Source of the DNA: a bacterium
GTDB lineage: Bacteria > BMS3Abin14
Direction: 5' to 3'
DNA length: 42,596 bases
NCBI GenBank assembly: GCA_029210545.1
Contig: JARGFV010000008.1
Span: 1 to 42,596, forward strand
This document shows positions 452-38,878 of the stretch, piece by piece. Position 1 is the first letter of the stretch; every line of letters starts with the position of its first letter. A model generated the notes under the pieces. It did no database searches and had not been told where the DNA came from. It worked only from the letters and a program-made list of their open reading frames with translations. Made by a program: the position numbers and the translations under genes.

Positions 452-514
452 CCATACATGGGCAATTGGTAACGAAGCCGACCTAATAACCCATTGAAGA
501 TGGAGGGAAAGAAA

Positions 515-940
515 ATGCTGAGCAAGATGAGAAACGAAAAAGGTTTTACCCTGATCGAGCTGATGATCGTTGTCGCCATCATCGGCATCCTGGCGGCCAT
601 CGCCATCCCCAACTTCCTCAACCTCAAGGACAAGGCCCTGTTCGGTACCGCCAAGGCCAACGTGGACGTGCTCCGCTCGGTGCTCGCTTCCTACGCCGCC
701 GACGATCCCACCAACAGGTATCCGATGTCGCTTGGTGGGAATTACACCTGGATTCGCGGGCTCCTGAAGGAGGCCAACCTCCCAGAGCAGCCGGAAGAGG
801 CCAAGTGGCTGCCCGGCTCCTTCACCTACACCAGTAACGGCACGAATTTCCAGATCTACGTCAAGGCTACAGACAGGTCCCAAGACACCCTCTGGGGGAC
901 CCCGTCCGGCATCACGCCCAACGCCTATCCCTGGCCGTAA
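515..940 (+). CDS. pilA: Type IV major pilin (PilA-like prepilin)
   Basis: The product is a 141-residue prepilin. Residues 1-10 (MLSKMRNEKG) form a short basic leader ending in Gly, followed by the class III signal FTLIELMIVVAIIGILAAIA with Phe+1 and Glu+5, the PilD cleavage and methylation site. The ATG at 515 is preferred over an in-frame TTG at 494 because GGAGG at 502-506 sits about 8 bp upstream of it. The roughly 100-residue head is rich in Pro, Thr and Asn and ends NAYPWP. It contains no cysteine, so the usual C-terminal disulfide loop is absent. The gene stands alone between a sigma-54 promoter (436-451) and an intrinsic terminator (968-1002), fitting a strongly expressed major subunit. 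A type II secretion major pseudopilin is the main alternative, but the pilMNOPQ, pilD and pilSR context favours a pilin. Confidence 0.88.
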   Translation: MLSKMRNEKGFTLIELMIVVAIIGILAAIAIPNFLNLKDKALFGTAKANVDVLRSVLASYAADDPTNRYPMSLGGNYTWIRGLLKEANLPEQPEEAKWLPGSFTYTSNGTNFQIYVKATDRSQDTLWGTPSGITPNAYPWP

Positions 941-22265: not shown

Positions 22266-22298
22266 CTCCGTGTCTCCCCTTCTCCGTGTCCCCGCGTC
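22221..22298. repeat. Octanucleotide array with two complementary arms, spanning the pilS stop
   Basis: Left arm: GACACGGT, GACGCGGC twice, GACGCGGA, GAAAAAGC (22221-22260). Right arm: CTCCGTGT, CTCCCCTT, CTCCGTGT, CCCCGCGT (22266-22297). The arms are reverse complements of one unit, GACRCGGN. The pilS stop (22263-22265) lies at the apex. The left arm encodes the kinase tail [15 protein letters not shown], evidence that the array entered coding sequence. Confidence 0.85.
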
Positions 22299-22346
22299 GG
22301 ACGGTTTCCTGGCCATAGATCGGGCCAGAGTTTGAAAGGTTGACCC

Positions 22347-23747
22347 ATGGAGTTGAAAAAGATCCTCATTGTCGACGACGAAGAGAGCGTGCGCTCAATG
22401 ATCGCGGTGCTCCTCCAGAAAGAGGGGTACCAGGTCAGCAGCGCCCCGGACGGGCCGGAGGCCCTGGGCCTTCTTGGGGAGCGGCCCTTCGACCTGGTCC
22501 TTTCCGACATCCGCATGCCGGGCATGGACGGGCTCGGGCTCCTGGACCGGGTCCGCTCCCTGTACCCCGAGATCACGGTGATCATGATGTCCGCCTTCGG
22601 CACGGTGGACCTGGCCGTGGAGGCGCTCAAGAGGGGCGCCTACGATTACATCAGCAAGCCGTTCAAGGCCGACGAGATCCTGCTGACCATCCGCAAAGCC
22701 CAGGAGCGGGAGGGCCTCCGCCGGGAGAACCTTCGCCTCAAGGAGGAGGTTGGCGAGCGGTTCAGCCTCGAGGGGATCGTGGCAAGGAGTCCCTCCATGG
22801 TCAGGATCATGGAGACGGTCCGCAAGGTGGCGGGGTACCGCAGCCATGTGCTCATCACCGGTGAGAGCGGGACCGGCAAGGAGGTCCTGGCCCGGGCGGT
22901 CCACAACCTTGGCCCCTGGAAGGATGACCCCTTCGTGGCGGTGAACTGCGGAGCCATCCCGGCGACCCTCATGGAGAGCGAGTTTTTCGGCCACGCCCGG
23001 GGGGCCTTTACCGACGCCGTGGCCGACAAGGCCGGCCTTTTCGAGGAGGCGAGCGGCGGGACCCTGTTTTTAGACGAGATCGGAGACCTTCCCCTGGACA
23101 TGCAGGTCAAGTTCCTCCGGGCCATCCAGGAGGGCGAGGTGCGCCGGGTGGGCGGCAACACCTCCATCCAGGTGGACGTGCGGATCATCGCGGCCACCGC
23201 GGCCGACCTGTCGGCGGCCGTCCGGCAGGGCCGGTTCAGGGAGGACCTTTTCTACAGGCTCAACGTGGTCCCCATCCAGATCCCGCCCCTCAGGCAGAGG
23301 ACCGAGGACATCCACCCCCTCGCCGATCACCTGCTGGATCGCATCTCCCTGCGCCTTGGAGGCGGGCAGCGCTCCCTTTCCCCCCATGGCCTCAAAGCTC
23401 TCCTCAAATACCCCTGGCCGGGGAACGTAAGGGAGCTGGAAAACCTGCTGGAACGCGCCGCCATCCTCGCGGAGTCGGTGACCCTGCATTCCGGGGACAT
23501 TATCCCCCTTCTCAGCGAGGGGATCCCTGTGGACAGGGAAGAGCTGCCCGAAGACGAACTTTCCATAAAAAAAAGCTCCCGCGTCCTGGAAAAGAGGCTC
23601 ATCGAAAGGGCCCTTGTCAAGACGCAGTACAACCGGAGCCAGGCGGCGCGGCTCCTGGAGATCAGCCACCGGGCCCTGCTTTACAAGATCAAGGATTACG
23701 GGATCGAAGTTCCCAAACAGGGAACTTCAGTTAACGGTTCACAGTAG
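22347..23747 (+). CDS. pilR: Sigma-54-dependent response regulator, PilR/NtrC family
   Basis: The product has 466 residues. The receiver (1-~120) has ILIVDDEES and the phosphoacceptor in LVLSDIRMPGMDG (Asp54). The AAA+ domain carries Walker A GESGTGKE (about 172-179), the sigma-54 contact loop as GAFTDA (about 220-225) in place of canonical GAFTGA, Walker B GGTLFLDEIGDLP, and FYRLNVVPIQIPPLR. A Fis-type helix-turn-helix at about 425-455 (NRSQAARLLEISHRALLYKI) ends the protein. AAAGG lies 7 bp before the ATG. It is the partner of the upstream kinase and the obvious candidate to activate the -24/-12 promoters at 436-451 and 23923-23938. The Asp in the GAFTGA loop may alter promoter engagement, although I believe this variant occurs in other members. 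Its last codons form a 9-bp hairpin. Confidence 0.9.
   Translation: MELKKILIVDDEESVRSMIAVLLQKEGYQVSSAPDGPEALGLLGERPFDLVLSDIRMPGMDGLGLLDRVRSLYPEITVIMMSAFGTVDLAVEALKRGAYDYISKPFKADEILLTIRKAQEREGLRRENLRLKEEVGERFSLEGIVARSPSMVRIMETVRKVAGYRSHVLITGESGTGKEVLARAVHNLGPWKDDPFVAVNCGAIPATLMESEFFGHARGAFTDAVADKAGLFEEASGGTLFLDEIGDLPLDMQVKFLRAIQEGEVRRVGGNTSIQVDVRIIAATAADLSAAVRQGRFREDLFYRLNVVPIQIPPLRQRTEDIHPLADHLLDRISLRLGGGQRSLSPHGLKALLKYPWPGNVRELENLLERAAILAESVTLHSGDIIPLLSEGIPVDREELPEDELSIKKSSRVLEKRLIERALVKTQYNRSQAARLLEISHRALLYKIKDYGIEVPKQGTSVNGSQ
23706..23728 (+). repeat. 9-bp perfect stem-loop in the 3' end of pilR
   Basis: GAAGTTCCC (23706-23714) and GGGAACTTC (23720-23728) pair around AAACA. It encodes EVPKQGTS of the regulator and directly abuts the heptanucleotide array. 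This is the same arrangement as at the end of pilS: a hairpin inside the last codons, then a short-period array over the stop. Confidence 0.8.
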
Positions 23748-23938: not shown

Positions 23939-23963
23939 TTATCCCCTGTGCGGAGGAAAGATG

Positions 23964-24626
23964 ATGAAACGGGTTTTGAGAAAAGAGCATGGGTTTACCC
24001 TGGTGGAGCTGATGATGGCGGTCTCCATCACCCTCCTGCTGACCTCCATCGCCGTCTACAACATGCTGGGCGACCTGCCCAAGTACCGCCTGCGGGCCAC
24101 GGCCAACCGTATCGCGTCCACTTTGCAGTACCTCAAGATCCGGGCGGTGACCACCAACAAGGTTGCCTGGTTTGACGCGAACTACAATACGGCCGGTAAG
24201 CACTACTTCACGGGGTTCGTGGACAATGATCCACCCAATACGCCCGATTTCCCCGCTGATTACGACGATTCCCGCCTCGATCTTCCGGACTCGATGGATT
24301 CGAGACCCTGTTTCCTGCTTCCGGCCAACGTCACCTTCGGTTTTCCGGACGGGTACACTTCCGGCACGGGTCCGGACAATACTACCTACCCAGGTGCCGG
24401 TAATTTCATCACCAGCTACGCGGAGGGGACCTATGCTTTGGGCAGTGGCGGGTATGTGGGATACCGGCCCACCGGCGTGCCTGTCGTTAACCTCTCGGCC
24501 AATAATACGGTCAATACTCCTGTCGTCATTTACCTGAGAAACAACCTGGGAGGGGGGTACGCCGTCTCGGTCCAGATCACAGGACGCGTCAAGGTGTGGA
24601 GATGGTATGGGGGAGCGTGGCAATGA
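23964..24626 (+). CDS. fimT: Minor prepilin, FimT/GspH family
   Basis: The 220-residue prepilin has leader MKRVLRKEHG, cleavage before Phe, and FTLVELMMAVSITLLLTSIA with Glu+5. The downstream region YRLRATANRIASTLQYLKIRAVTTNKVAW is the GspH/FimU pattern (a long amphipathic helix ending in the ...AR..A..... signature). The remaining head is Gly-, Asn- and Thr-rich beta-strand sequence ending KVWRWYGGAW. A preceding ATG at 23961 is equally in frame; 23964 has better spacing (7 bp) from GGAGG at 23952-23956. It is the first gene of the four-gene minor-pilin operon behind a -24/-12 promoter, and its stop overlaps the next start. FimT/FimU-type proteins help prime pilus assembly and sit near the tip. 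Confidence 0.85.
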   Translation: MKRVLRKEHGFTLVELMMAVSITLLLTSIAVYNMLGDLPKYRLRATANRIASTLQYLKIRAVTTNKVAWFDANYNTAGKHYFTGFVDNDPPNTPDFPADYDDSRLDLPDSMDSRPCFLLPANVTFGFPDGYTSGTGPDNTTYPGAGNFITSYAEGTYALGSGGYVGYRPTGVPVVNLSANNTVNTPVVIYLRNNLGGGYAVSVQITGRVKVWRWYGGAWQ

Positions 24627-25180
24627 TGAAAACGGTGTGCGTACGGGAAAAATCAGGGATTACAATGCCGGGTTTCCGTTCCAGGAGTGCGGGGCAAAGG
24701 GGTTTTGGCCTCCTGGAGCTCCTGATCGCCATGACGATCCTGGCTGTCGGGATCCTGGGGATCATGAAGCTCCAGATGCAGTCGAGCTTCGGCAACACGG
24801 CTTCGCGGAACACATCAGCCGCCGTGAACCTGGCCCGATCCAAGATCGAATCCCTCAAGAGAGTCGGTTCCTATTGCCTTCAGAACCAGAACAATCCGAG
24901 TATCGTGAACTCTGCGGTGCCGGATCTCCAGGACCAGAACGGCAGTACGTCTCTGGACAACTGGACCACCCCCGATTTCACGGATCCGCCCATGAACGAG
25001 TCCCAGGATTCAAGTGGCCTGGGGAAGATCTTCACCAGGAAATGGAACATCGCTGACAATACCCCCATACCCGATTTCAAGACGATCCGCGTACGGGTTG
25101 AGTGGACCTGGAACGGGGAGCCAAGATACCTGGACCTGGAGACCCAGATCGGTTTTAAGGACACGGTATATTTCAATTAG
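24623..25180 (+). CDS. pilV: Minor prepilin, PilV family
   Basis: The product has 185 residues. The leader is long (27 residues, MMKTVCVREK...QRG) before the PilV-typical FGLLELLIAMTILAVGILGI, with Phe+1 and Glu+5. The helix continues as MKLQMQSSFGNTASRNTSAAVNLARSKIE, matching the PilV/GspI pattern of small residues followed by an A..LA...IE segment. The ATG at 24623 overlaps the preceding stop (ATGA). A second ATG at 24665 would give a 13-residue leader and is also possible, though without a clear ribosome site. The head is short, with DSSGLGKIFTRKW and VEWTWNGEPRYLDLETQIG. It belongs to the priming/tip complex with the FimT-, PilW- and PilX-like proteins. Confidence 0.85.
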   Translation: MMKTVCVREKSGITMPGFRSRSAGQRGFGLLELLIAMTILAVGILGIMKLQMQSSFGNTASRNTSAAVNLARSKIESLKRVGSYCLQNQNNPSIVNSAVPDLQDQNGSTSLDNWTTPDFTDPPMNESQDSSGLGKIFTRKWNIADNTPIPDFKTIRVRVEWTWNGEPRYLDLETQIGFKDTVYFN

Positions 25181-25216: not shown

Positions 25217-28200
25217 ATGTTGCGGTCGCAAAGAACGAGAGCATTGAAGAAAACCGTGGGTGACAAGGGCTTCACCCTCACCGAACTCATGGTTGCCCTG
25301 GTGATCCTCGGGCTCATCATGAGCGTGGTCTACAAGGTGTTCTCCACCCAGGAGCGGTTCTTCCGGACCCAGGAACAGGTTTCCGCAATGCAGGAAAACC
25401 TCCGGGCCACCATGGAGTTTATCAACCAGGAGCTTTCCTGGCTGGGGTACCGGGTGCCCGGGATCGGGGTATTAAAGGCATCGCCCACCGACATCATCTT
25501 TCAGGCCAACATCCCCAACACCGGCCAGACCATCCAGTACATCCGGTACCAGTTCAACCCCACCCTTAATAACATCTCACGGGCCACAGGAGCCTATGTG
25601 ACAGGTGTAGAGGACAACAACCTGAGAGTCATGGCCTCGGACATCGAGGCCATGGCCTTTTCCTACTTCAACGTTCAAAACGAATTGGTGAATGTGAATC
25701 CGGCCAGTCCGCCGTGTGCCAGCACTCTTTCAACCACACTATGCAGCCCCGGGATTCCCGGCGGGGTCGGTGGATACCCCACCGGGGGAGACAAATCCCT
25801 CCTGATGATCCAGCGGGTCAAGGCCCGGGTCACGGCGCGGACCTCCCAGCCGGATTGGCAGTACACCGATCCGGAGAGCGGAGCCAACCCGAATTTCCGC
25901 AAACGCAAGGCGGTGCTGGACCTCAAGGCCCGGAACCTCGAGGACGTGACGACCCAGGCCGGACAGATCGTTTTGGGTTACTGTGGAGAACTGGATCGTA
26001 CTGTTACTCCCCCGACTATCCCGGGTAACGGGAAGTATGCGGCCTGTCGCGACCAACTCGCCATGTTATCCGGGAATGTACCGGATATGACATCCAACTG
26101 GGACGACAATCCCCTGATCGAGGTCTTCGCGAAGAACGCGGACCTCACCACCAATACCAATCCCAACCGGGGGATCCAGGTCTATGCCTATGATGACAAC
26201 AACACTTCATATAATATCTACGATCCCACCGATACTACTGCCATCAATAATCATACTGACACTGGCGAACTGCGGTACCTGGCCGCCCAGGGACTGTCAA
26301 ACGTGACACCAGGCACCTATATCCACCTGAAGTTCGTCTATACGGACGGCGTCTGCACACAGGTTGTCAGCACAATGTCAAATGCCATCCAGATCACCGG
26401 CGGTGCGGCCTCCCATTTTGACAATAGCGGAGACTATTTCAATAGCGGATTATCGGTGAGTTACGTCGACTCTTCCGGCGGCGCGATCGCCCTTTCGGCT
26501 CCGGGAAAAGTTCGCATGTGCCAGGCCGTCAGCGGGGAGAGGGTTCTTCTCGGCGCCAAACTCCTGGACGGCTGTAACGGTTCCATACCGGGCGAAACGG
26601 TGAACTGGAGCCACGGCGGGGCCGGCGGGAGCTTTGTCGACGAGACCGACAACGGGGACGGCACCTACAGCGCCACCTGGATCCCACCCGACACCATGCC
26701 AACGGCGGCTCCAGACTACTCTGTCAACCTTAACGCACTGTGGGGATCGTTCAGCCCCGCTATAGCTGTGACGCTGATCGCGGCTATGCCCCACGACATT
26801 GTCATCGATTCCATAGTGGACATCAGCAAGGCCGGGATCTTCCAGTTCTCCTCCTCGGTTCTGGACCGCGCCAGCCAACTGGGCGGAAACACCGGAAGCA
26901 GTTTTGAGATCGAGCGTATCGACGGGCAGGAGGTCGGTATCCGGTTCCATCTTGAGGATGCCTGCGGGAACCGGGTCTTTGGAGAGACAGTCGACACGGT
27001 GTCGGTGTCCATCGGCCACATTACAGGGCCGACCTACAACCCATCGACGGGCAGTTACGACCTGGCCTGGGAGTCGAACCTCGGGTGCGGTATCGAACAG
27101 CTCGACCAGAACATCTTTATCTCGGTTTCGACCATTGCCGACCCGGCCACAAAGTCCGAGACAGTGGCCTTTAAACTCCTCACCACAAGGTCCCAGAATC
27201 CCGACGCCGGTCCGTTCCTGGTACTTGACTCCAATCCCCTTGGCAAGCAGCTCCAGGCGGGTAACACCAATGACAACGTGACGATCCAGGCTGAGGTGTT
27301 GGAGTACCAAGAGGACTCGGGGTTTTGCGTCAACCTCCACTCCTCCACCTTCCCCCGTGTTTTCCCCGTTAAATTCACTGTGGCCGGAGAGCCCACCGGC
27401 AACGGTTCCTTCGATGCCGTTTCTCCCTTTAACACGGTCTCGAAATCGGTGGATTCGGATAACTTCGCCGTCGCGGCTGTGCAGCTGTACTCCGGTACGG
27501 CCGACTGGGACGGATCACTCATGGTAACGGCGACCGCGACCATCAACGGGGCCGACTATTCCGGCATTATGAATGTTGGCATGAAAGAGACCAACCATCC
27601 GCAGGTAAAAAGCGGCATCTACCGGAGCGGCCTCTACGGTCTATCGGACAAGATCGGGACAGGTGAAAGCTTCAACCCGGGGGATGACCTCTACCTGCAG
27701 ATCTTCGATTACGACGAGAACGAGGAACCCACCGGCCAGGATTCTTTTTCGAGCCCGTACGACGTGGAGGTGACCCTCGAAAGCGCGCTTACGGGCGACA
27801 TCGAGGTCGTAGGTCTCACCGAGTGGAGCGGTAATTCGGCCGAGTTCCGCGCGACCCTCAACACCCGGTTCTTCCCTGCCCTGGCCACGACGGTGGACAG
27901 GGATGACAAGACCCTTCAGGTCCGTGACGGCGACACCATCACCATGACCTACAAGGACAAGGACAACCCGCTGGACAACCCTTCTTGGACCGTCAAGACC
28001 TTAGGGGCGGATACCTTCAGGATCTTCAGGCTGCCGGCTCCGGAAGTGGAGGTCATTGACCCGGCAGATCCGCTCCAGGTAGCGGTATCCCCCGGGGACA
28101 GTCTGCGGCCTGAACTGTCCCTGCCCTTCCTGGCGGGCGACGGCAGCTCCGATGCCGATACCGTCACGATCACCATCGTGTCCGGTTCCGGTGCGGACGA

Positions 28201-30970
28201 CACGGACATCCTGGTCCTGAGGGAAGAGGGGGACACCGGCATCATGGTGCCCGACTGGCTCATCTACAGTGGAAAGTACTTCTCCATGCTCAGGACCGAC
28301 CCGTCCGATTTCGCATATCTGCTGGCCACCCCCACGCTCCCGAGATACGTCACCATGACCTACGATGTGCCGGGCAGCTACCTTCCGGCAAAGACCCGAA
28401 CGTTCTTCATGAAGGACCAGGATCCCCCTCTGGTGGCGATCACTACGCCGAGTGCCGGAGCCGTCCTGTCAAGTGAGGTGCAGGTCATGGTGAACGCCGT
28501 CGACGTGGCCAATGCCACATCGTGGGCGGGCATCGACCACGTCGAGCTGTACATCAACGGGCGGCTGTACCAGACGCTCCCGGGAGCGGGCCTTCCGGGC
28601 GATCACACCTTCACCTGGACCACCGCCGTTGGCAGCATCCCGTACTGGCTGGACGGCGGCCACACCCTTAGCGCTGTGGCCTACGATAAAAGCCTCAACA
28701 TGGGCGCCAGCGCCGCCGTTGGTGTGTCTGTCTCAAACGGTCTGACCCCCATCTGGTTCCCTTATCCGACAAACAACGCAATCTACAGCCAGTCGGTGGA
28801 TATCGGTATGCAGGTGGCCAATATGGCGCCGGCAGCCGGCACCTATACGGTGTCCCTCGCGGTAGGGGGCGCCATCGCCGCATCCTTCGCCGGCACCGGG
28901 GGCGGGACCTATGTGTACAACCTTGACACCATCCCGGCCAGTGGTTCGACACTGGAGGGGGAGATCGAACTGATCGCGACCCTCCAGGACGCCCAGGGGA
29001 ACGATTTCTGGACGGTTTTGCAGATCTTCGGTGACCACGTTCCTCCTGCTATCACATACGGTCCTCCCCCGTCATACCTGACCACTGTCGATGTCATTAC
29101 CAGCCCGCTGAGCGTGGATATTGACATTCAGGATCCGATCATCGCGGCCGGCGATCCCAACAGGGTGGATACCACAACGGTCCTGGCTCATTTCGCCGGG
29201 CCAGGCGCCTGTGACGCGACCGGGCTGACTCCGACAATATCCCCCGCCCTGGGGAACGGCACCTACACTTTTGAATGGCCTGGCAGCATCAAGCTTTGTG
29301 ACGACGTGGAGGGGATCATGACCCTGACGGTGGACGCCGCCGACGTCGCCATGCCGTCGCCCAATCAGGCCTCCACGGCGATCAGCACCAGGATCGACAC
29401 CGCGGAGCCTGTTGTGAAGAACCTGGCCGTTGGCCCCATGGTGGGTCCATCCTTCACAGTATATATGACCGAGTATAACGGCGGCCAGGAAGTGACGGTG
29501 GGCGGCTTCATCACAGGGGACGTCATCGTTTCCGCCGCCGCCAGCGACATGTGGCCACTGCAGGGATCTTTCGAATGGGAGCAGTACTTGGATCAGTGGT
29601 CGTTGGGGAATCAGTATTCTTTGCCCCTGGACGCTTCCTCAGGTACCTTCTCGGTCGCCTGGGCCACTTCCGACTTGGCGGCCCCGATTCCGCCTCCCCA
29701 TGACGAAGGTTTTTACAGGATAACGGCCGACGCATGGGACGAGGCCGGAAACCAGGCCGTCACCCGGCCGTACCTCTGGGTCTACCTGGACAACAATCTG
29801 CCAGGGGCCAGTTTGCCCTCGGTGATCCCGAACGCGTTGCCCACGCAGGGGTATATCAACGTTATAATGGAAGCTTTGGATCAGGGTTTCCTCAGCACCG
29901 TGGAGCACCGCTACATCGAGTCGGGAATGGGTATTGACCCGGATATCGGGCCGTGGGAACACGTGGAGAGTTACAGTTTTACAGCTCAGGAAAAGGTGAG
30001 GGATTTTAGAAAGATCTATTCCATGGACACATGCACCCTGACTCCCGGCAGCACCTACGAGATATGGGCCTATGCCACGGACCATGCGGGCCACGTAGCC
30101 TTGCGCCAGGGGCCCGTAACGATCACGGTGGAGAACCTGATATATGTCAGTCCCCCCAATACCCTCGATCCCGACGGCGCGGACCTCAGCTGGAAGGAAG
30201 CGCCTCCCCCCGGCTCCGGCGACTGGCAACTGACTCTGGACACGGCGACGATCAATGACTGCAACGGGCCGGCAGCCTTCTACTCGGTCAAGGTTTCCTT
30301 CCATCGCTGGTACTGGACCTGCATGGACCCCCCGACCTGTTCATTGTATGATTACGATCTCGACGGGACCATCAAACCTGCGGATGTATACAGCGTGACG
30401 GTGACAACCGATGCCGCCGGCCATGTGGGCACCATCAGCGCCCCCAGCGGCACCTGGACATACAACAGCACGGATATGGCTGCGATACTGTTCGAACCCG
30501 TGGCAGGCCCCTACTGGAACAATTACTGGATCCCCCTGTTCCTGGATCATCCGCAGCCGCCGCCGCCAGACCCCTCTTCCCCTCCTGCCTGGTGGGAGTT
30601 GTTCGGTTCCGATACGCAATACCTTATGGCCACCGGTCTCACGTACGACCTGGCCCCGGCTTTCGCGCCGTCTTACCTCAACCTGACGGTGTCGGGGAAC
30701 CTCATCTGGAACAGCGGGAAACCCGCCGAAGGTTACTCTGTACAGATGGAGTTGAACTACTGGAGCGACTCCCTGCCGGGCTGGATAACGACGATCAGAT
30801 ACTCGGGAACCGATTCAGCGGGCTATTTCAAGTTCACTCCCCCCGATGACCTGCGCAACGACTATTCGGTCAAGTTCCGCCTCTACGGGATCCAGCCGCT
30901 TACTGCCGATTTTCTCAGGGAGGTTTCCTGGGATTGCGTTAAAGACAAGTGGTTGGAGTGGTTAGAGTGA
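25217..30970 (+). CDS. pilW: Giant PilW-like minor pilin fused to a multi-domain Ig-like region
   Basis: The 1917-residue protein starts as an ordinary PilW: leader MLRSQRTRALKKTVGDKG, then FTLTELMVALVILGLIMSVV with Glu+5, MQENLRATMEFINQELSWLG, and a PilW head ending near residue 230 (RKAVLDLKARNLEDV). Usual PilW proteins stop near 250-350 residues. Here about 1,690 more follow, a series of beta-rich Ig-like modules. One at about 485 has DNGDGTYSATWIPPD, an invasin/filamin-like signature. Another at about 1070-1165 has AITTPSAGAVLSSEVQVMV and HVELYINGRLYQTL. The last, near 1810-1900, resembles a carboxypeptidase-regulatory or CNA-B-like fold (VSGNLIWNSGKPAEGYSVQM). GGAGG at 25204-25208 supports the ATG at 25217. 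No PilY1 gene is present; by position and size this protein may be the tip adhesin. Only one stop-free frame spans 5.7 kb, so it is not an assembly fusion of two genes. Confidence 0.85.
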   Translation: MLRSQRTRALKKTVGDKGFTLTELMVALVILGLIMSVVYKVFSTQERFFRTQEQVSAMQENLRATMEFINQELSWLGYRVPGIGVLKASPTDIIFQANIPNTGQTIQYIRYQFNPTLNNISRATGAYVTGVEDNNLRVMASDIEAMAFSYFNVQNELVNVNPASPPCASTLSTTLCSPGIPGGVGGYPTGGDKSLLMIQRVKARVTARTSQPDWQYTDPESGANPNFRKRKAVLDLKARNLEDVTTQAGQIVLGYCGELDRTVTPPTIPGNGKYAACRDQLAMLSGNVPDMTSNWDDNPLIEVFAKNADLTTNTNPNRGIQVYAYDDNNTSYNIYDPTDTTAINNHTDTGELRYLAAQGLSNVTPGTYIHLKFVYTDGVCTQVVSTMSNAIQITGGAASHFDNSGDYFNSGLSVSYVDSSGGAIALSAPGKVRMCQAVSGERVLLGAKLLDGCNGSIPGETVNWSHGGAGGSFVDETDNGDGTYSATWIPPDTMPTAAPDYSVNLNALWGSFSPAIAVTLIAAMPHDIVIDSIVDISKAGIFQFSSSVLDRASQLGGNTGSSFEIERIDGQEVGIRFHLEDACGNRVFGETVDTVSVSIGHITGPTYNPSTGSYDLAWESNLGCGIEQLDQNIFISVSTIADPATKSETVAFKLLTTRSQNPDAGPFLVLDSNPLGKQLQAGNTNDNVTIQAEVLEYQEDSGFCVNLHSSTFPRVFPVKFTVAGEPTGNGSFDAVSPFNTVSKSVDSDNFAVAAVQLYSGTADWDGSLMVTATATINGADYSGIMNVGMKETNHPQVKSGIYRSGLYGLSDKIGTGESFNPGDDLYLQIFDYDENEEPTGQDSFSSPYDVEVTLESALTGDIEVVGLTEWSGNSAEFRATLNTRFFPALATTVDRDDKTLQVRDGDTITMTYKDKDNPLDNPSWTVKTLGADTFRIFRLPAPEVEVIDPADPLQVAVSPGDSLRPELSLPFLAGDGSSDADTVTITIVSGSGADDTDILVLREEGDTGIMVPDWLIYSGKYFSMLRTDPSDFAYLLATPTLPRYVTMTYDVPGSYLPAKTRTFFMKDQDPPLVAITTPSAGAVLSSEVQVMVNAVDVANATSWAGIDHVELYINGRLYQTLPGAGLPGDHTFTWTTAVGSIPYWLDGGHTLSAVAYDKSLNMGASAAVGVSVSNGLTPIWFPYPTNNAIYSQSVDIGMQVANMAPAAGTYTVSLAVGGAIAASFAGTGGGTYVYNLDTIPASGSTLEGEIELIATLQDAQGNDFWTVLQIFGDHVPPAITYGPPPSYLTTVDVITSPLSVDIDIQDPIIAAGDPNRVDTTTVLAHFAGPGACDATGLTPTISPALGNGTYTFEWPGSIKLCDDVEGIMTLTVDAADVAMPSPNQASTAISTRIDTAEPVVKNLAVGPMVGPSFTVYMTEYNGGQEVTVGGFITGDVIVSAAASDMWPLQGSFEWEQYLDQWSLGNQYSLPLDASSGTFSVAWATSDLAAPIPPPHDEGFYRITADAWDEAGNQAVTRPYLWVYLDNNLPGASLPSVIPNALPTQGYINVIMEALDQGFLSTVEHRYIESGMGIDPDIGPWEHVESYSFTAQEKVRDFRKIYSMDTCTLTPGSTYEIWAYATDHAGHVALRQGPVTITVENLIYVSPPNTLDPDGADLSWKEAPPPGSGDWQLTLDTATINDCNGPAAFYSVKVSFHRWYWTCMDPPTCSLYDYDLDGTIKPADVYSVTVTTDAAGHVGTISAPSGTWTYNSTDMAAILFEPVAGPYWNNYWIPLFLDHPQPPPPDPSSPPAWWELFGSDTQYLMATGLTYDLAPAFAPSYLNLTVSGNLIWNSGKPAEGYSVQMELNYWSDSLPGWITTIRYSGTDSAGYFKFTPPDDLRNDYSVKFRLYGIQPLTADFLREVSWDCVKDKWLEWLE

Positions 30971-30992
30971 TTTTCAGGGAGGGTTTGTCGTG

Positions 30993-32735
30993 ATGTCGAC
31001 GGAAAAGAAACAGTACTGTCATGAAAGCTCCCGCGGTCAGCGTGGCACCGCCCTGGTCCTGTCCCTGTTCCTCATCACCGTGCTCACGGTGCTCGGGACC
31101 ATGGTGCTCAACACCTCCATCGTGGAGATCAAGATGGCGGGCAACCAGAAGATCTCATCCCAGGTGTTTTACGCCGCCGAGGCGGGCCTCGAGCGGGGCC
31201 TTCTCATGCTGATAAAAGACTTTGAGAACGACACCTCGACAGGCAGTCCATGGGGCAACACCACCGTCGCCGGTTGGAGCGAATCGGTTACCATGACCAC
31301 CATGTCCGGCGGCACCACCTTCGACCCGGACGTACGGAACCTGGCTATGTACATCGACGGCAACGACGCCCTCGGCAACCTGAAGAAAGTTACCCTTGGG
31401 GGCGGCCACACGGTGAACAACTGCACCTTCGACCTTTACATCTACAACCTGGGGGACAACGAGGTGTGGGTGCTTTCCCACGCCTACGGCAACGGTGGCA
31501 CCGCCGCCGTGGAGTACTATTTGCGGGTGGACAACGTGGCCCCTTACGACAACGCCATTTTCAGCGGTTCGGGGATTCACGGCAAGCCGCAGGGAAGCGT
31601 CAATATCGCCGGGTCCATCTATTCCAGGGGAACCCTTTCCCTGGGCGCAAACAACAATATCCATAATTTATACGGCGGCGGAAGTTGGCCCGGCGGTACC
31701 ATGACCGGCAACCTTGAAAGTCTCCTCAAACCTGAATACGACCTCGAAGCGAAAGTCCGCGTCAATGGAGGTAATCTCGAAGTTGACGCAGCTTCAACTC
31801 AGCTCGGCGACTCTGTTATGGACACCTCCACGGGTGTAAAGGGATCCCTTGCAGGGGTCTACGTGGACGGTGAAAACCAGGCTGCGGGGCTTTGGGGAGA
31901 TCCCCATTACATCGACGACTATCAGCAGGAGGTGCCGGATGTGCCCATGCCCAATGTCCTGGATGGCCTGAAGGGGAAACCGCCCGCGGGTTTCGGCGAG
32001 GCGTTCATAAACAACTGCATCACCACCCAGGGTTATACCGGCAGCGACGCGGCGGTGGCCACCTCCCTTTACGCGGATTGGGCCAACGGCGAGGGCTGCT
32101 GGGCTGCGTCAGACAGCGTGGGTGTCGTTTTTGACGCCAGTACCATAGCCGGTTCAGCGAATCTCATCGACAGCTCGACGGCCGCCTTCGCCTTCAGCGA
32201 CGGTCTGGGCAACGGGATCTTCTGGGATCCGGCCGCGGGAACCTATGGAAAACTGACTATCAAGGGCACCGTGGTCATCGAAGGGGATCTGCAAATCGGA
32301 AAAGGCAACGGCCAGGATGACATTGAATACGAGGCCTACGGTCCGGGCCCCGCCTTCGCCCAGACGACAGGCTCCACCATGTTCTGTAATGGCAACATGT
32401 TGTTCAACGGGACTTTCGCCCCGCCTGCGGGTTCCGGGTACCTGAAGGGGGACACCGGCGATGACATCAACAGCCTCGGTGTCATCACCCCCGGGAATAT
32501 CACCTTCAACGGGGGGCCGAGTGACTTCTTTACGGGGTTCTACTTCGCGGGGAACGAGACAACCTTCATGGGGCAGGCTTCATTGGCCGGGACGACCATC
32601 ACCAAAGCCGCGAATTTCGAGCAGGTACCGGACCTCTTCCAGGTCCCCAATCTCAAGATGTACCGGCCCATGGGTGTGCCGGGGGGATCCGACCTGTTCT
32701 TACTGGACAAGCGGGAGTGGAGGAGGGTGTACTAG
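30993..32735 (+). CDS. pilX: Large PilX-like minor pilin
   Basis: The product has 580 residues. The N-terminus has the PilX_N signature: QRGTALVLSLFLITVLTVLG, then IVEIKMAGNQKISSQVFYAAEAGLERGL, including the conserved MAGN and AAEAGLE blocks. Typical PilX proteins have about 150-250 residues; this one adds a long Gly- and Asn-rich region with short repeats such as SVNIAGSIYSRGTLSLG, KLTIKGTVVIEGDLQIG and LGVITPGNITFNGG, suggesting a beta-helix. ATG 30993 (or GTG 30990) follows the strong site AGGGAGGG (30976-30983). It is the last gene of the minor-pilin operon; a heptanucleotide array and a terminator follow. It may anchor or present the giant PilW at the tip. Confidence 0.83.
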   Translation: MSTEKKQYCHESSRGQRGTALVLSLFLITVLTVLGTMVLNTSIVEIKMAGNQKISSQVFYAAEAGLERGLLMLIKDFENDTSTGSPWGNTTVAGWSESVTMTTMSGGTTFDPDVRNLAMYIDGNDALGNLKKVTLGGGHTVNNCTFDLYIYNLGDNEVWVLSHAYGNGGTAAVEYYLRVDNVAPYDNAIFSGSGIHGKPQGSVNIAGSIYSRGTLSLGANNNIHNLYGGGSWPGGTMTGNLESLLKPEYDLEAKVRVNGGNLEVDAASTQLGDSVMDTSTGVKGSLAGVYVDGENQAAGLWGDPHYIDDYQQEVPDVPMPNVLDGLKGKPPAGFGEAFINNCITTQGYTGSDAAVATSLYADWANGEGCWAASDSVGVVFDASTIAGSANLIDSSTAAFAFSDGLGNGIFWDPAAGTYGKLTIKGTVVIEGDLQIGKGNGQDDIEYEAYGPGPAFAQTTGSTMFCNGNMLFNGTFAPPAGSGYLKGDTGDDINSLGVITPGNITFNGGPSDFFTGFYFAGNETTFMGQASLAGTTITKAANFEQVPDLFQVPNLKMYRPMGVPGGSDLFLLDKREWRRVY

Positions 32736-33319: not shown

Positions 33320-34378
33320 ATGGCACTGTTTGGTGGTTCGAAACCGTTAGCCGGGCTGGACATCGGTTCCAGTTCGGTCAAGCTCGTCGTGCTCAAGGAG
33401 ACTGGGAAAGGGTACCGTCTCGTGAACATGGGCGTGCGATCGCTCCCCCAGGAGGTCATCGTGGACGGCGCCATCATGGACGCCGGCGTTATCAGCGACA
33501 CTCTCCGGGACATGATCCGGGAGATGAAGCTCAAGATCAAGGACGTCGCCGTCTCGGTATCCGGCCACTCGGTCATCATCAAGAAGATCAAGGTGCCCGA
33601 GATGACGGAAGAGGAACTGGAGAAGAACATCCAGTTCGAGGCCGAGCAGTACGTTCCCTTCGACGCCTCCGAGGTCAACATGGATTTCGTCATCATGGGC
33701 ACGGTCGAGGGCGAGGGGAAGATGGAGGTCCTCCTGGTGGTGGTGAAAAAGGACGTCATCAACGACATCACCACCGTGGTGACCGAAGCGGGCCTCAACC
33801 CCGTGGTGGTGGACGTGGACGCCTTCGCTCTTCAGAACATGTACGAGACCAACTACGTCATGAACCCCGAGGACGTGGTGGCCCTGGTCAATGTGGGGGC
33901 CTCCACCACCAACATCAACATCATCAGGGACGGGGTCTCCATATTCACCCGGGATATCTCGGTGGGCGGCAACCAGTTCACCGAGGCGATCCAGAAGCAG
34001 CTCCAGGTCAGCTACGACGAGGCCGAGATCCTCAAGAAGGGCGAGCCTGTGGGGGAAAAGGGGCCCGAGGATGTGGAGCCGATCCTGGGCGTTATCTCGG
34101 ACAACCTGGGACAGGAGATCCAGCGCTCCCTGGACTTTTTCAACTCCTCGAACCCCGACATCCAGATCAGCCGCGTCTCCCTTTGCGGCGGCGGCGCCAA
34201 GGTGGGCAAGGTGATCCAGGCCGTGGAACGGAGGATTGGGATCCAGGTGGAGCTGGTCAACCCCATGGAGGCCATCGTCTATAACAGGAAGAAGTTCGAT
34301 CCCGCTGAGATCGAGGATGCGGCGCCCATGCTGGGGATCGGCGTGGGTCTGGCCATCAGAAAGGCGCATGACCGATGA
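33320..34378 (+). CDS. pilM: Type IV pilus assembly ATPase-fold protein PilM
   Basis: The 352-residue cytoplasmic protein has an actin/FtsA-like fold, with the phosphate-1 segment LAGLDIGSSSVKLVVLKE (residues 10-27). It also has VALVNVGASTTNINII near 190 and RVSLCGGGAKVGKVIQ near 288, the family's nucleotide-binding elements. QFEAEQYVPFDASEVNMDF near 108 is the PilM/competence signature. It binds the cytoplasmic N-terminus of PilN and links the inner-membrane alignment complex to the motor. GGAGG stands about 6 bp before the ATG, and the stop overlaps the pilN start (ATGA). Length and motifs are normal. Confidence 0.96.
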   Translation: MALFGGSKPLAGLDIGSSSVKLVVLKETGKGYRLVNMGVRSLPQEVIVDGAIMDAGVISDTLRDMIREMKLKIKDVAVSVSGHSVIIKKIKVPEMTEEELEKNIQFEAEQYVPFDASEVNMDFVIMGTVEGEGKMEVLLVVVKKDVINDITTVVTEAGLNPVVVDVDAFALQNMYETNYVMNPEDVVALVNVGASTTNINIIRDGVSIFTRDISVGGNQFTEAIQKQLQVSYDEAEILKKGEPVGEKGPEDVEPILGVISDNLGQEIQRSLDFFNSSNPDIQISRVSLCGGGAKVGKVIQAVERRIGIQVELVNPMEAIVYNRKKFDPAEIEDAAPMLGIGVGLAIRKAHDR

Positions 34379-34938
34379 TAAAGATCAACCTGTTACCGGT
34401 CCGGGAAGAGCGGCGCCGCATGGGCGCCAGGCAAGAACAGATGTTCTTCGTCCTGATCCTGATCCTTGTCTTTATAGGGGTATTCTACTGGCACTCCACC
34501 ACCAGCAAGAAGATCAAGAACCTGAGGATGCAGATCACCCAGGCGGAGGACGACATCCGGCGGCTCGACAAGATCGTAAAAGAGGTGGAGCAGTTCAAGA
34601 AGGACAAGAAGATCCTCGAGGGAAAGATCGAGGTCATCGACAAGCTGAAGAAGGGCCGTCAGGTCCAGGTGCATTATATGGACGAGCTCAACAAGGCCCT
34701 GCCCAGCCAGGTCTGGGTGGAGTTCTACCAGCAGCGTGCCGACACGCTGATCCTGAGGGGGAAGTCGCTTTCAACCGATGACATCGCGAGCTTCATGCGC
34801 AACCTGGAGGCTTCCGTCTATTTCGACGATATCCGGCTCGACCAGACAAGCCAGAAGGAGATGCAGCTTGGAGGCCGCTCGGTCAGGGTGAACGATTTCA
34901 GTATCCGGCTGCTGGTTGTCCCGGGTGCCGGCGCGTAA
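34375..34938 (+). CDS. pilN: Type IV pilus alignment protein PilN
   Basis: The 187-residue bitopic protein starts with MIKINLLPVREERR, the conserved cytoplasmic INLLP motif that docks into PilM. A single membrane helix follows at about 22-40 (MFFVLILILVFIGVFYW), then a coiled coil (about 45-105, Lys/Glu-rich) and a small periplasmic ferredoxin-like domain with VWVEFYQQRADTLILRG. It pairs with PilO. It overlaps pilM by 4 bp, and pilO begins 31 bp after its stop. Confidence 0.94.
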   Translation: MIKINLLPVREERRRMGARQEQMFFVLILILVFIGVFYWHSTTSKKIKNLRMQITQAEDDIRRLDKIVKEVEQFKKDKKILEGKIEVIDKLKKGRQVQVHYMDELNKALPSQVWVEFYQQRADTLILRGKSLSTDDIASFMRNLEASVYFDDIRLDQTSQKEMQLGGRSVRVNDFSIRLLVVPGAGA

Positions 34939-34968: not shown

Positions 34969-35550
34969 ATGGCAATCGACGTTGAAACCATCACCAACCT
35001 GTCACCGGTCAAAAAGCTCGGCCTGGTGGTGCTGGTAGCCGTGCTGATCGTTGGCGGATACTGGTACAGCTTTTACCGGAGCAAGGCTAAGACCATCGAC
35101 CGCCTGCGGGGCGACCTGAGCAACAAGCAGGCCAAGCTCAACGAGAACGAGGCCATCGCCCGGAACCTGCCGAGGTTCAAGGAAGAGGTGGAAAAGCTGA
35201 ACCTCCGGCTGAGCAAGGTGGTCCAGGAGCTTCCTAACAGCCGTGAGATCCCCAACCTCCTGGAGACCATAAGCAACCTGGGCGCCATTAACGGACTCGA
35301 AGTGCTCTACATCAAGCCCAGCAACGACGTGGACAAAGGGTTTTACGCCGAGGTCCCCATATCGGTGAAGGTCAAGGGCGGCTATCACGAAATGGGGATG
35401 TTCCTCGACGCCGTGAGCAAGCTGCCGAGGATCATCAACGTCAGCGACATCACCATAGGAAACGCCAAGGAGGACGGAAGGACAGGAGCGATCATCCTGG
35501 ACATCAGCGCCCTGGCGACAACCTACAGGTACATGGAGAAGGGGGGTTGA
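34969..35550 (+). CDS. pilO: Type IV pilus alignment protein PilO
   Basis: The 193-residue bitopic protein has a short cytoplasmic N-terminus (NLSPVKKLGL), one membrane helix at about 18-36 (GLVVLVAVLIVGGYWYSFY) and a coiled coil (about 40-85). Its periplasmic domain has LPNSREIPNLLETISNLG and VKGGYHEMGMFLDAVSKLPR, the family signature. It forms heterodimers with PilN and contacts PilP. AGGGAGG precedes the ATG. The stop lies 2 bp before the pilP ATG. Confidence 0.94.
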   Translation: MAIDVETITNLSPVKKLGLVVLVAVLIVGGYWYSFYRSKAKTIDRLRGDLSNKQAKLNENEAIARNLPRFKEEVEKLNLRLSKVVQELPNSREIPNLLETISNLGAINGLEVLYIKPSNDVDKGFYAEVPISVKVKGGYHEMGMFLDAVSKLPRIINVSDITIGNAKEDGRTGAIILDISALATTYRYMEKGG

Positions 35551-35552
35551 GC

Positions 35553-36092
35553 ATGACGATCCCGACACGCCTGACGGCGATCCTCCTGCTGGTCCTGGGC
35601 GTCGGACTTTTTGCGGCTCCGGCGTGCAGGAAGGCCCCGCCCCCGCCCCCGAAACAGGCCCCCGTGGCGGTCAAGCCCCAGCAAGCCGCGCCGCCCAAGG
35701 CCGAAGCGGTGGCAGAGGCCGGGGAGGTCGAGGTGTTCAGGTACAACCCCGCCGGGTACCGCAGTCCCTTCGGATCCCTGCTAAGGGTGAAGCAGGCCGA
35801 GGAAGGGGCGCCCGAGGAATCGCTGACACCTCTTCAGAGGATCCCGGTCACCGACATCCGTGTCGAGGGGATCATCCTCATGGGGAAAAGGTCAGTGGCA
35901 AACGTCATTACCCCGGACGGGAAAGTCCACATCGTTTCGGTGGGCACACCCATGGGGAGGCACAAAGGGAAGATCGTCAGGTTGACCTCCACGGAAGTGA
36001 TCGTGGAGGAACAGTTCGAGGATTACCTGGGAAAAGAGTTCAAACAGGAAACTGTTCTCAGGCTACGCGAGAAAGAAGGGGAGAGTCTGTGA
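35553..36092 (+). CDS. pilP: Type IV pilus lipoprotein PilP
   Basis: The product has 179 residues. A signal peptide (about 1-24) ends in FAAPACRKAPPPP, a plausible lipobox with the cysteine followed by a Pro-rich linker. The PilP domain has YNPAGYRSPFGSLLRV, LTPLQRIPVTDIRVEGIIL and VIVEEQFEDYLGKEFKQE. It bridges PilN/PilO with the N0 region of the secretin. The ATG at 35553 is preferred over TTG at 35547 because of the purine-rich site GGGGGG 6 bp upstream. Its stop overlaps the pilQ start by one base. Confidence 0.93.
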   Translation: MTIPTRLTAILLLVLGVGLFAAPACRKAPPPPPKQAPVAVKPQQAAPPKAEAVAEAGEVEVFRYNPAGYRSPFGSLLRVKQAEEGAPEESLTPLQRIPVTDIRVEGIILMGKRSVANVITPDGKVHIVSVGTPMGRHKGKIVRLTSTEVIVEEQFEDYLGKEFKQETVLRLREKEGESL

Positions 36093-38878
36093 TGAAGCTT
36101 TCGATGGCTAAACTACCGTGGGTACTGGTGGCTTTCGCCCTGGCCTTCAGCGGGTGCGCGGCTCCCGGGAGCCAGATGCGCGCGTCCGTGGAGGAGGCGG
36201 CTGTCGCCGGCGTCGTCTCGGTGACCGGAGAGGAACTGCCTGACAGGGTGCGGCTGAACATCGAAGGGTCCACGACCCTCGCCTATACGGTGTTCAGGCT
36301 TTCCGAGCCGCTGAGGCTCATCGTGGACCTGGCCGATGCCGACGTCACCGGGCTCGGTGAGGAGATCGCTGTGGATCTGGGCAACGTATCCACGGTAAGC
36401 CCCATCCAGTTCGACGAGGATTCCGGCCGGATCGGCCGGCTCGAGATCTCCCTGGTGGAACTGTGGGATTACGAGACATCGCGGTCCGACGGCACTATTA
36501 TCATCGACTTCCTCAAGCCGGTCACGGTTGCTGAGGGGGCGGCTCTGGAGGCTGTTGAGCAGCCTTCGGAGCTCCAGCCCATGGAGGTTCAGGATGTGGA
36601 GGTCGTCGAACTCACTGTACCAGGTGAGGAGTCCTTGACCGGAGCCCCCATGGTTGAAGGGGCCGCCCCTGCCGCTGAGCCCCTGTCCCCGGCCGGATTT
36701 ATCAACGGCGTTCTGTTCGAGGAAACCGACGGCGGGCTCACAGTCAGGTTCGCGGCCGACGGGACGGTAGCCGACTACAGGACCATGGACCTTACCGGCC
36801 CCACCCGGCTCGTTCTGGACGTCCAGGGAGTGGCCAAGGGGTTCGCCCCCAGCCGTATCCCTGTGGAGATGGGCGGGGTGAGCCGCATACGGGTCGGTGA
36901 GCATTACGACCAGAACAAGCTGCGCTTCGTCCTGGATCTTGACGGTGAGGCTGTGCCACCCTACGCTCTGGAATCGGTGGGCTCCGAACTTGTCCTGAGA
37001 CTGGGTGAAGGCGCCGTGGCAGCGGCGCCCGTGGTTCCGCAAACCGTGGAAAGTGAAGAACCTGTCCAGGGCGAGCCTGAACCTGCCGCGGGAGCGGCCG
37101 ATGAGGTGACTCCCGCTCCTGTTGAGGCCGCGCCAGCCCCAGCCCTTATTCCTGTTGTTACACCATCCGCAACTGTCGGCGGCAACGCTGTTACGGACAT
37201 CAGGTACCGGGCGGAGGCTGCGGGCGGGGCTGTGCTCATCATCTCCGATACCCCGGTGGATTACAATATTACCCAGCCCGATGCCGGCCACCTCCTTGTG
37301 GACCTGGCGGGTGTCAGCCTGTCCAGAGGCCTGGTGCGCAGCCAGGATACCCGGGACATGGAGGGGGCCCTGCAGTCGCTGAGTTCCTATAACCCACGGG
37401 GAGCTGACGGTGCCCGGGTCAGCCTGTCTTTCACCGCAGGGACAACCTACGAGGTGGACCAGACCGGCGGAACTTTGACGATCTCCCTGACAGCGTCGGC
37501 ACCCGAGGCGGCGCCTCCGTCCGGGGTAATGTCCGAGGAAAGGCCCATGGCCCGTCCGGAACCGGCCGCGGCGGCTCCCGCACCCGTGGAACCGGCTCAG
37601 GCCAGACAGGCAGCGACCTCGACCTCCATATCCATGAAGACCGATGAAGGTCCCCGGTTCACCGGCGAGAGGATCACCCTGGACTTCCAGAACGCCGACC
37701 TGCTCAACGTCTTGAGGCTCATCGCCGAGGTCAGCGAACTGAACATCATCACGGCTGAGGGCGTCGGCGGCAAGATCAGCATGAGAATGGTGGATGTTCC
37801 CTGGGACCAGGCTCTCGATATCATCCTCAAAACCAAGCAGCTGGGCCAGATCCGCGAGGGCAACGTGGTCCGCATTGCCCCCAGGGCTGTTCTCGAGGGT
37901 GAAAAACTCGCCGCGTTAAAGTCCAAGGAGGCCGAGATCAAGGTCGAGGACCTCATCCTTGAGATCATCCCCATCAGTTATTCCAAGGCGGAGGACCTCG
38001 TAAGCCAACTGGGCTCTTTCCTCAGCTCGCGGGGAACCATAAGCACCGACTCCAGGACCAACTCCCTCATCGTCAAGGATATCGAAGCCAACGTGGCGCG
38101 GGTCAAGGAACTTGTCCAGACCCTGGATATCCCGACACCACAGGTGAGGATAGAAGCCCGGATCGTCATCGTTGACGAGTCTTACATCAAGAACCTGGGT
38201 ATCGAATGGGGTGCGTCCGCCACGTCGGGTGGTACGCAGATCTTCGGCGATTCGGGAGGTACCGGCGTGCCCAACTCCCTGGTTAACCTGCCTGCCTCCA
38301 ACGCCCAGACCGCTCTCGGATTTTCCTTCGGTAGCGTGGGTAACTTCGACAACCTGGATCTGAGGCTCAGCGCCCTGGAACAGAGCAACAACGGCCGGAT
38401 CATCTCCAGCCCGTCCCTCCTGGTGATCCAGGACGAGACGGCCAGCATCGAAGTGAACAACCCGTTCCCCGAGAACCGGTCCTCAACCTCACAGAGCGAC
38501 GCAGGAACCACCACGACCACGGACGTTTCCTTCCCTGACATCAAGACCAAGCTTCAGATCACTCCCCAGGTGACCAGCAACCAGGACATCTTCATGGAAG
38601 TCAAGGTGGAGAAGGACAGCAAGGGCGCGTCCGCCAGTTTCGAAGGGAATACCTTCACGGGGATCAACACCCACAAACTGGATACCAAGATCATCGTCAA
38701 GAACAACGGGACGGCCGTTATCGGCGGTGTCTACACGGAGGAAGAAACCGACGGGCAGGGCAGCGTGCCGTTCTTCTCCAAGGTGCCCATCTTAGGGTGG
38801 CTGTTCAAGAACAAGAACACCAGCAACAGCAGGAACGAGCTTCTGATCTTCATCAACGCCACTATCGTGGGATCCTGA
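36092..38878 (+). CDS. pilQ: Type IV pilus secretin PilQ with three AMIN domains
   Basis: The 928-residue protein forms the outer-membrane pore through which the pilus emerges. A lipoprotein-type signal ends at FSGC (Cys22). Three AMIN-like beta domains lie at about 45-150, 205-307 and 368-467, joined by Pro/Ala/Glu-rich linkers; they probably bind peptidoglycan. Then follow the STN/N0 domain (about 525-603, ITLDFQNADLLNVLRLIAEV), an N1/secretin_N domain (about 623-683, SRTNSLIVKDIEANVARVKE) and the secretin core (about 688-928) with IEARIVIVDESYIKNLGIEWG and VPFFSKVPILGWLFKN. The core's conserved end ELLIFINATI is intact. Usual PilQ lengths are about 650-900. The ATG at 36092 overlaps the pilP stop; the upstream open reading in this frame lies within pilP and is not coding. 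Confidence 0.96.
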   Translation: MKLSMAKLPWVLVAFALAFSGCAAPGSQMRASVEEAAVAGVVSVTGEELPDRVRLNIEGSTTLAYTVFRLSEPLRLIVDLADADVTGLGEEIAVDLGNVSTVSPIQFDEDSGRIGRLEISLVELWDYETSRSDGTIIIDFLKPVTVAEGAALEAVEQPSELQPMEVQDVEVVELTVPGEESLTGAPMVEGAAPAAEPLSPAGFINGVLFEETDGGLTVRFAADGTVADYRTMDLTGPTRLVLDVQGVAKGFAPSRIPVEMGGVSRIRVGEHYDQNKLRFVLDLDGEAVPPYALESVGSELVLRLGEGAVAAAPVVPQTVESEEPVQGEPEPAAGAADEVTPAPVEAAPAPALIPVVTPSATVGGNAVTDIRYRAEAAGGAVLIISDTPVDYNITQPDAGHLLVDLAGVSLSRGLVRSQDTRDMEGALQSLSSYNPRGADGARVSLSFTAGTTYEVDQTGGTLTISLTASAPEAAPPSGVMSEERPMARPEPAAAAPAPVEPAQARQAATSTSISMKTDEGPRFTGERITLDFQNADLLNVLRLIAEVSELNIITAEGVGGKISMRMVDVPWDQALDIILKTKQLGQIREGNVVRIAPRAVLEGEKLAALKSKEAEIKVEDLILEIIPISYSKAEDLVSQLGSFLSSRGTISTDSRTNSLIVKDIEANVARVKELVQTLDIPTPQVRIEARIVIVDESYIKNLGIEWGASATSGGTQIFGDSGGTGVPNSLVNLPASNAQTALGFSFGSVGNFDNLDLRLSALEQSNNGRIISSPSLLVIQDETASIEVNNPFPENRSSTSQSDAGTTTTTDVSFPDIKTKLQITPQVTSNQDIFMEVKVEKDSKGASASFEGNTFTGINTHKLDTKIIVKNNGTAVIGGVYTEEETDGQGSVPFFSKVPILGWLFKNKNTSNSRNELLIFINATIVGS

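Follow-up and report, generated by a model that had tools for sequence, protein, structure and literature searches.

Gene Content of the Locus

The window (i.e., the whole stretch of DNA that was analysed, 42,596 nucleotides) carries a minor pilin cassette followed by the genes pilM to pilQ, all on the forward strand. The cassette begins with the genes of a FimT/GspH-type minor pilin (23961..24626; N_methyl 1.1e-6; TIGR01708 1.1e-6, below cut-off) and of a PilV-type minor pilin (24596..25180; TIGR02523 3.8e-10, likewise below cut-off), continues with a giant pilW (25217..30970) and ends with the gene of a PilX/GspK-type minor pilin (30990..32735; PilX_N 7.1e-11; GspK 4e-5), so that the giant does lie between pilV and pilX, as a preliminary description of the window had stated. 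The PilX protein is itself enlarged (581 aa), its PilX_N domain being followed by about 500 residues without a Pfam match. Downstream are found pilM (33320..34378; PF11104 1.3e-78), pilN (34375..34938; PF05137 1.7e-18), pilO (34969..35550; PF04350 2.8e-41), the gene of a PilP-type lipoprotein (35547..36092), recognised by its position and sequence and with homologues at the equivalent place in the family genomes, and the secretin gene pilQ (36086..38878; TIGR02515 6.8e-112, over cut-off).

Two adjacent ATPase genes, of the size of pilB and pilT, are located on another contig of the host genome (C39), while a candidate for the major pilin PilA (148 aa) is encoded in the window itself (494..940, forward strand; N_methyl 4.9e-11; NF041775 PilA_Myxo 1.1e-15, below cut-off). 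The latter is followed by the genes of two membrane proteins with O-antigen-ligase-like and TPR regions (963–2804 and 2804–4675), the second of which weakly matches the O-glycosylation ligase model TIGR03097 (7e-9); they are possibly involved in pilin glycosylation. Finally, a sensor kinase and an NtrC-type sigma-54 regulator are encoded directly upstream of fimT (20040–23747) and are kept there in the relatives, which suggests that the tip genes have a PilS/PilR-like control of their own.

A Complete PilW Pilin with a Long Extension

The giant pilW is a single uninterrupted frame of 1917 codons on the forward strand, the translation of which has no internal stop. Its ATG at 25217 is preceded by the Shine–Dalgarno motif GGAGG, and its GC contents at codon positions 1/2/3 (55/47/76%) fit coding DNA, given an overall GC of 60%. 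The protein is about eight times the usual size for this type IV pilus tip subunit and, once mature, would be a strongly acidic polypeptide of about 205 kDa (computed pI 4.2).

The prepilin leader (residues 1–18; 25217..25270) ends in VGDKG, with Gly18 at position −1, and is followed by FTLTE, with Glu23 at +5. This N-terminus matches N_methyl and TIGR02532 (2.7e-7 and 1.2e-7, over cut-off), i.e., it bears a class III prepilin signal, and the leader would be cleaved after Gly18. The mature PilW-type module (residues 19–243; 25271..25945), composed of the long N-terminal helix and the head, aligns collinearly with canonical short PilW proteins, C-terminal R-N motif included (BLASTP 1e-15 against a 301-aa PilW), and ends at VLDLKARNLED, around residue 243, where ordinary PilW proteins stop. 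In 18 distinct short PilW-like proteins from other lineages, the R-N(-L) motif stands 2–8 residues before the stop; in the giant, R-N-L occupies residues 239–241 and is followed by 1,676 residues, the extension beginning two residues past the motif. The position of the motif and the collinear alignment of the head indicate that the giant is a complete PilW (J-subunit) pilin, lengthened at its natural C-terminus. This bears out the earlier view of one 1917-residue PilW-headed minor pilin, the first ~230 residues of which form a normal PilW prepilin with cleavage site and Glu+5.

The Pfam model for PilW (PF16074) yielded no match to the head up to E = 1. Since the same model misses most short PilW-like pilins (out of seven, two were over cut-off, two below and three without a match), we regard it as narrow, and the name PilW is based on the alignment and the gene order. 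AlphaFold models computed from the single sequence (residues 18–535 and 1060–1655) reached a mean pLDDT of about 36, the N-terminal helix alone being confident.

The extension that follows the head (about 1,670 residues) can be divided into two chains and a tail, with borders between modules drawn by eye. The proximal chain (residues 244–1068; 25946..28420) comprises about six beta modules of ~130 residues with signatures of the Big_1, invasin and filamin types (Invasin_D3 0.03 in the giant itself; Big_1 1.1e-6, Filamin 1.7e-4 and Invasin_D3 0.0056 in family homologues), and its profile matches filamin fragments only (E 0.45). In the distal chain (residues 1069–1650; 28421..30166), about five Ig-like modules are present: Big_7 is over cut-off at residues 1071–1152 (4.3e-6), Big_13 matches more weakly, and the chains of family homologues match Big_13 (6e-12), Big_7 (1.3e-9) and Big_3_3, while the profile of the distal chain matches a bacterial Ig structure (9kvu; E 0.0054) and, weakly, the Ig domains of SiiE (2yn3; E 0.06). 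The C-terminal tail (residues 1651–1917; 30167..30967), which is presumably the distal end, is not recognisably Ig over its ~265 residues, and the extension contains no recognisable binding domain of a known kind, such as lectin or vWA. Altogether, the extension would amount to about 11–13 beta modules, mostly Ig-like. The HMM search proposed in the preliminary description thus supports its ~1,690 residues of Ig-like modules as far as Big_7 in the giant and the Ig families in homologues are concerned, but not for every module, nor for the tail.

Conservation within the Family

The host belongs to a family that is apparently the sole representative of its phylum in our genome set, since its relatives go directly from the same family to the same domain. 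Among the other 11 family genomes, G009 (1681–1697 aa, with its own stop) and G004 (~1630 aa, ending at the contig end) encode a homologous protein with head and chain, and partial copies at contig ends occur in G005, G006, G007, G008 and G011. The readable family loci have the order histidine kinase, NtrC-type regulator, fimT, pilV, giant pilW, pilX and pilM, and the enlarged pilX adjoins the giant in all of them. In G003, there is no match to pilX and only a weak relative of pilM. Runs of N in that region account for the giant apparently lacking from three single-contig genomes (G001, G002 and G008); a genuine loss was rejected, since pilX and pilM are retained in these genomes and a 248-aa piece in G008 matches residues 1822–1916 of the giant, which points to an assembly gap.

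Among the relatives, identity to the window protein is about 60% in the helix, about 38% in the head, 16–43% in the modules (25–43% for most of them, lowest distally) and 15–23% in the tail, the latter also being shorter in G009 and G005. This decrease from helix to tail and the variable length of the tail would suit an exposed distal binding end. After the giant, pilX varies most among the genes of the cluster within the family (35–59% identity).

Absence of PilY1, and Occurrence of Giant PilW Proteins in Other Lineages

The Pfam model for the beta-propeller of PilY1 (PF05567) matched neither the giant PilW itself nor any protein of the host genome and of the other 11 family genomes. Since it also matched nothing in 14 control genomes (0/14), we judged it too weak to be used alone and built a stronger profile from six sequences. 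This profile finds PilY1 in 10/10 positive-control genomes (nine of which had not been used in building it), and none in the 12 family genomes, host included, nor in 14 genomes of other families that encode giant prepilin-headed proteins. The lack of pilY1 noticed earlier in the window therefore extends to the host genome (97.5% complete), where neither model located a copy elsewhere, and to the family as a whole (12/12).

When 386 genomes from across the domain were searched with the profile of the PilW head, the matches listed included prepilin-headed frames of 700–1900 aa in about 23 families. Hence, giant PilW-headed proteins are not unique, which calls for a correction of the earlier view. 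Many of the giants fetched from other families lie in the order fimT/pilV, giant, PilX-like, and in most of them the R-N motif is immediately followed by the chain. The modules are of the Ig, FN3, Calx-beta, SdrD_B/SpaA/carboxypeptidase-regulatory, FG-GAP and MAM-like types.

In the comparison of long PilW-headed proteins with PilY1 that had been suggested, PilY1 turned out to be rare beside giants: among the matches listed (115 genomes), it was found in 1/33 genomes with a giant PilW vs. 28/82 with short heads only (Fisher p = 2.6e-4), from lists compiled by hand, with a 700-aa threshold chosen after seeing the match table, PilY1 scored with the weaker Pfam model and synteny checked for part of the frames. 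Counted by family, which corrects only partly for ancestry, the figures are 2/23 vs. 24/62 (p = 0.008, again among the matches listed). In the one giant-bearing genome with PilY1 (G244), the giant is on another contig, and the contig of pilY1 has a short PilW.

Some of these loci deserve a brief comment. In G046, the neighbours are those of the window (a regulator, pilV-type pilins, a PilX-type protein and the giant, then pilM to pilQ). G046 (L045 5588–10561) and G313 (L127 8744–13726) encode related PilW-headed proteins of ~1660 aa, with chains that look FN3-like by eye and have no Pfam hit, and their gene order is pilV, pilX, giant pilW and pilM, i.e., with pilX ahead of pilW, the reverse of the order in the window. 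G143 (L137 6393–9332) uses a different toolkit, its 979-aa PilW-headed protein combining SdrD_B modules with FG-GAP repeats (integrin-type propeller). Finally, both tip subunits are modular in G115, where an 822-aa PilX-type protein with FG-GAP repeats (L128 740–3208) is found beside a 1798-aa PilW-headed Ig protein.

Proposed Role of the Giant PilW

In model type IVa pili (T4aP), the tip complex is made of FimU/T, PilW, PilV and PilX, and is topped by PilY1 (PMC7541494, PMC13190605). We consider it fairly probable that the giant is a modular minor pilin acting as a tip-anchored adhesive stalk, which does the adhesive work of PilY1 in a lineage devoid of the latter. In such a scheme, the prepilin peptidase would remove the leader, and the PilW head would take its usual place in the FimT–PilV–PilW–PilX tip/priming complex of a PilMNOPQ type IVa pilus, where it might contribute to priming. 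The thin chain of modules would then pass the PilQ secretin along with the tip and hang from it as a stalk, perhaps 40–50 nm long if extended (assuming ~4 nm per module), and the fast-evolving tail would bind a surface or polymer, after which retraction would pull on the giant.

Two published observations have to be set against this role. A PilW3-sfGFP fusion jams the machine in Myxococcus, so that tolerance of bulk added at the C-terminus is no trivial matter (PMC7541494), and PilY1 docks on PilX, not on PilW (PMC13190605). Moreover, PilX is also enlarged in the window, so that the adhesive role could lie there. In addition to priming the extension of the pilus, PilY1 docks on the very subunit that is enlarged here, and its replacement may therefore be shared or partial. 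Of the earlier proposal, a pilin-anchored adhesin functionally replacing PilY1, what stands is the PilW head with an adhesin-like chain, encoded in the tip cassette of a genome without PilY1, whereas the putative replacement fits the inverse distribution of the two.

A rather unlikely alternative is that the stalk serves as a spacer, brake or force sensor, which holds the tip complex at the secretin or reports contact, the binding being left to the enlarged PilX or to another protein. A 581-aa PilX beside the giant in all readable loci, the PilX-type partner with FG-GAP repeats in G115 and the giant's lack of a recognised binding domain are compatible with it, as is the proposal that the Myxococcus tip complex works as a cork (PMC7541494), but a spacer has no obvious need for a fast-evolving distal tail of variable length, and the module types change among other lineages, several of them being typical of adhesins. 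It is less probable still that the pilus mainly serves DNA uptake, with the chain presenting a DNA receptor: ComZ of Thermus thermophilus, a proposed tip pilin, does have an additional, large beta domain for which DNA binding has been proposed (PMC6561018, cited in PMC8179133), yet the mature giant is acidic, unlike most DNA binders, and Ig chains are typical of adhesin stalks.

It is very improbable that the giant works as a pseudopilin in a type II secretion system, even though its head also scores against the GspH, GspG and GspJ models, as prepilin heads do. We rejected this reading, since the operon encodes PilM, PilN, PilO and a PilQ over cut-off, and a separate cluster with GspD/E/F-like genes and its own pseudopilins exists on contig C17 (names judged by sequence, size and order). 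Lastly, an assembly or annotation error that fused a short PilW to an unrelated surface protein is hardly credible, and is refuted by a fusion common to independent assemblies: the host genome is indeed a draft in 241 contigs, and contig ends or N gaps interrupt the gene in several relatives, but the frame also runs continuously from head to extension in G004, G009 and G007 (and over its 5' part in G005), independent family genomes carry the fusion in the order fimT–pilV–pilW–pilX–pilMNOPQ, and the poor assembly of a long, module-rich gene would explain the breaks.

Comparison with Known Systems

Pilins with adhesive modules grafted at their C-terminus have already been described and reported as widespread (PMC8179133, PMC9934059; Raynaud 2021). 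These modular pilins number >1,200 proteins in 264 architectures, the most extreme one cited having 860 residues and 12 repeats (PMC8179133). With Big_7 at residues 1071–1152 and Ig families in its homologues, the giant likewise joins extra domains that are not specific to type IV pili to a pilin module. PilB and PilC of S. sanguinis (PMC8179133, PMC9934059) share with it a class III prepilin signal, a pilin module that comes first and C-terminal adhesive-type module(s) (in PilC, an Ig-like module, then a lectin), along with a proposed tip location and the lack of PilY1 in their hosts, which are monoderms. However, they are only ~450–500 aa long, with a short pilin moiety and one or two extra modules, whereas the giant has a full-length PilW head and 11–13 modules, and belongs to a secretin-type (diderm) system.

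PilC/PilY1 of diderm T4aP (PMC7541494, PMC13190605) is also large, modular and presented by the tip complex, and in other bacteria its gene is part of the same minor pilin cassette, but it is not a pilin: it is a protein of its own, with the PF05567 beta-propeller at its C-terminus. As for ComZ, it is a T4aP minor pilin proposed to sit at the tip, the beta-solenoid of which is inserted within the pilin beta-sheet (PMC6561018), while the chain of the giant follows the pilin C-terminus. CofB and TcpB (as described in PMC8179133) are tip minor pilins with extra C-terminal beta domains too, yet they belong to T4bP, are trimeric, act as adaptors for a secreted effector and are far shorter. Finally, adhesins built of Ig chains (SiiE, invasins and intimins, for instance) consist of a tandem bacterial Ig stalk with a distal end. 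Whereas SiiE leaves the cell by type I secretion and invasins are anchored in the outer membrane, the anchor of the giant is a pilin.

The claim of an undescribed system was thus overstated, considering that giant PilW heads occur in many families and that modular pilins are already known; we therefore regard the giant as an extreme new variant. Its novelty is the combination of a full PilW head, 11–13 modules and family-wide conservation in the absence of PilY1. In the open-licence literature, which makes for weak evidence of novelty, we found no paper on giant PilW proteins or on their inverse relation to PilY1.

The tip adhesin and priming factor regarded as standard for diderm T4aP is PilY1, even though many genomes with prepilin and pilus genes have no detectable PilY1. 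If the adhesive role is correct, the recurrent giant PilW would explain how pili hold on to surfaces in such genomes, the prediction being that, where PilY1 is missing, PilW carries an adhesive chain. More tentatively, and with less confidence than for the family itself, giant PilW proteins could represent a second general solution for the T4aP tip, in which PilY1 has been repeatedly replaced, in many bacterial lineages, by interchangeable adhesin-type chains (Ig, FN3, Calx-beta, SdrD_B/SpaA, FG-GAP or MAM-like) on the natural C-terminus of PilW. The giant would also be an example of a tip pilin that naturally tolerates a very large fusion at its C-terminus, unlike the engineered PilW3-sfGFP of Myxococcus.
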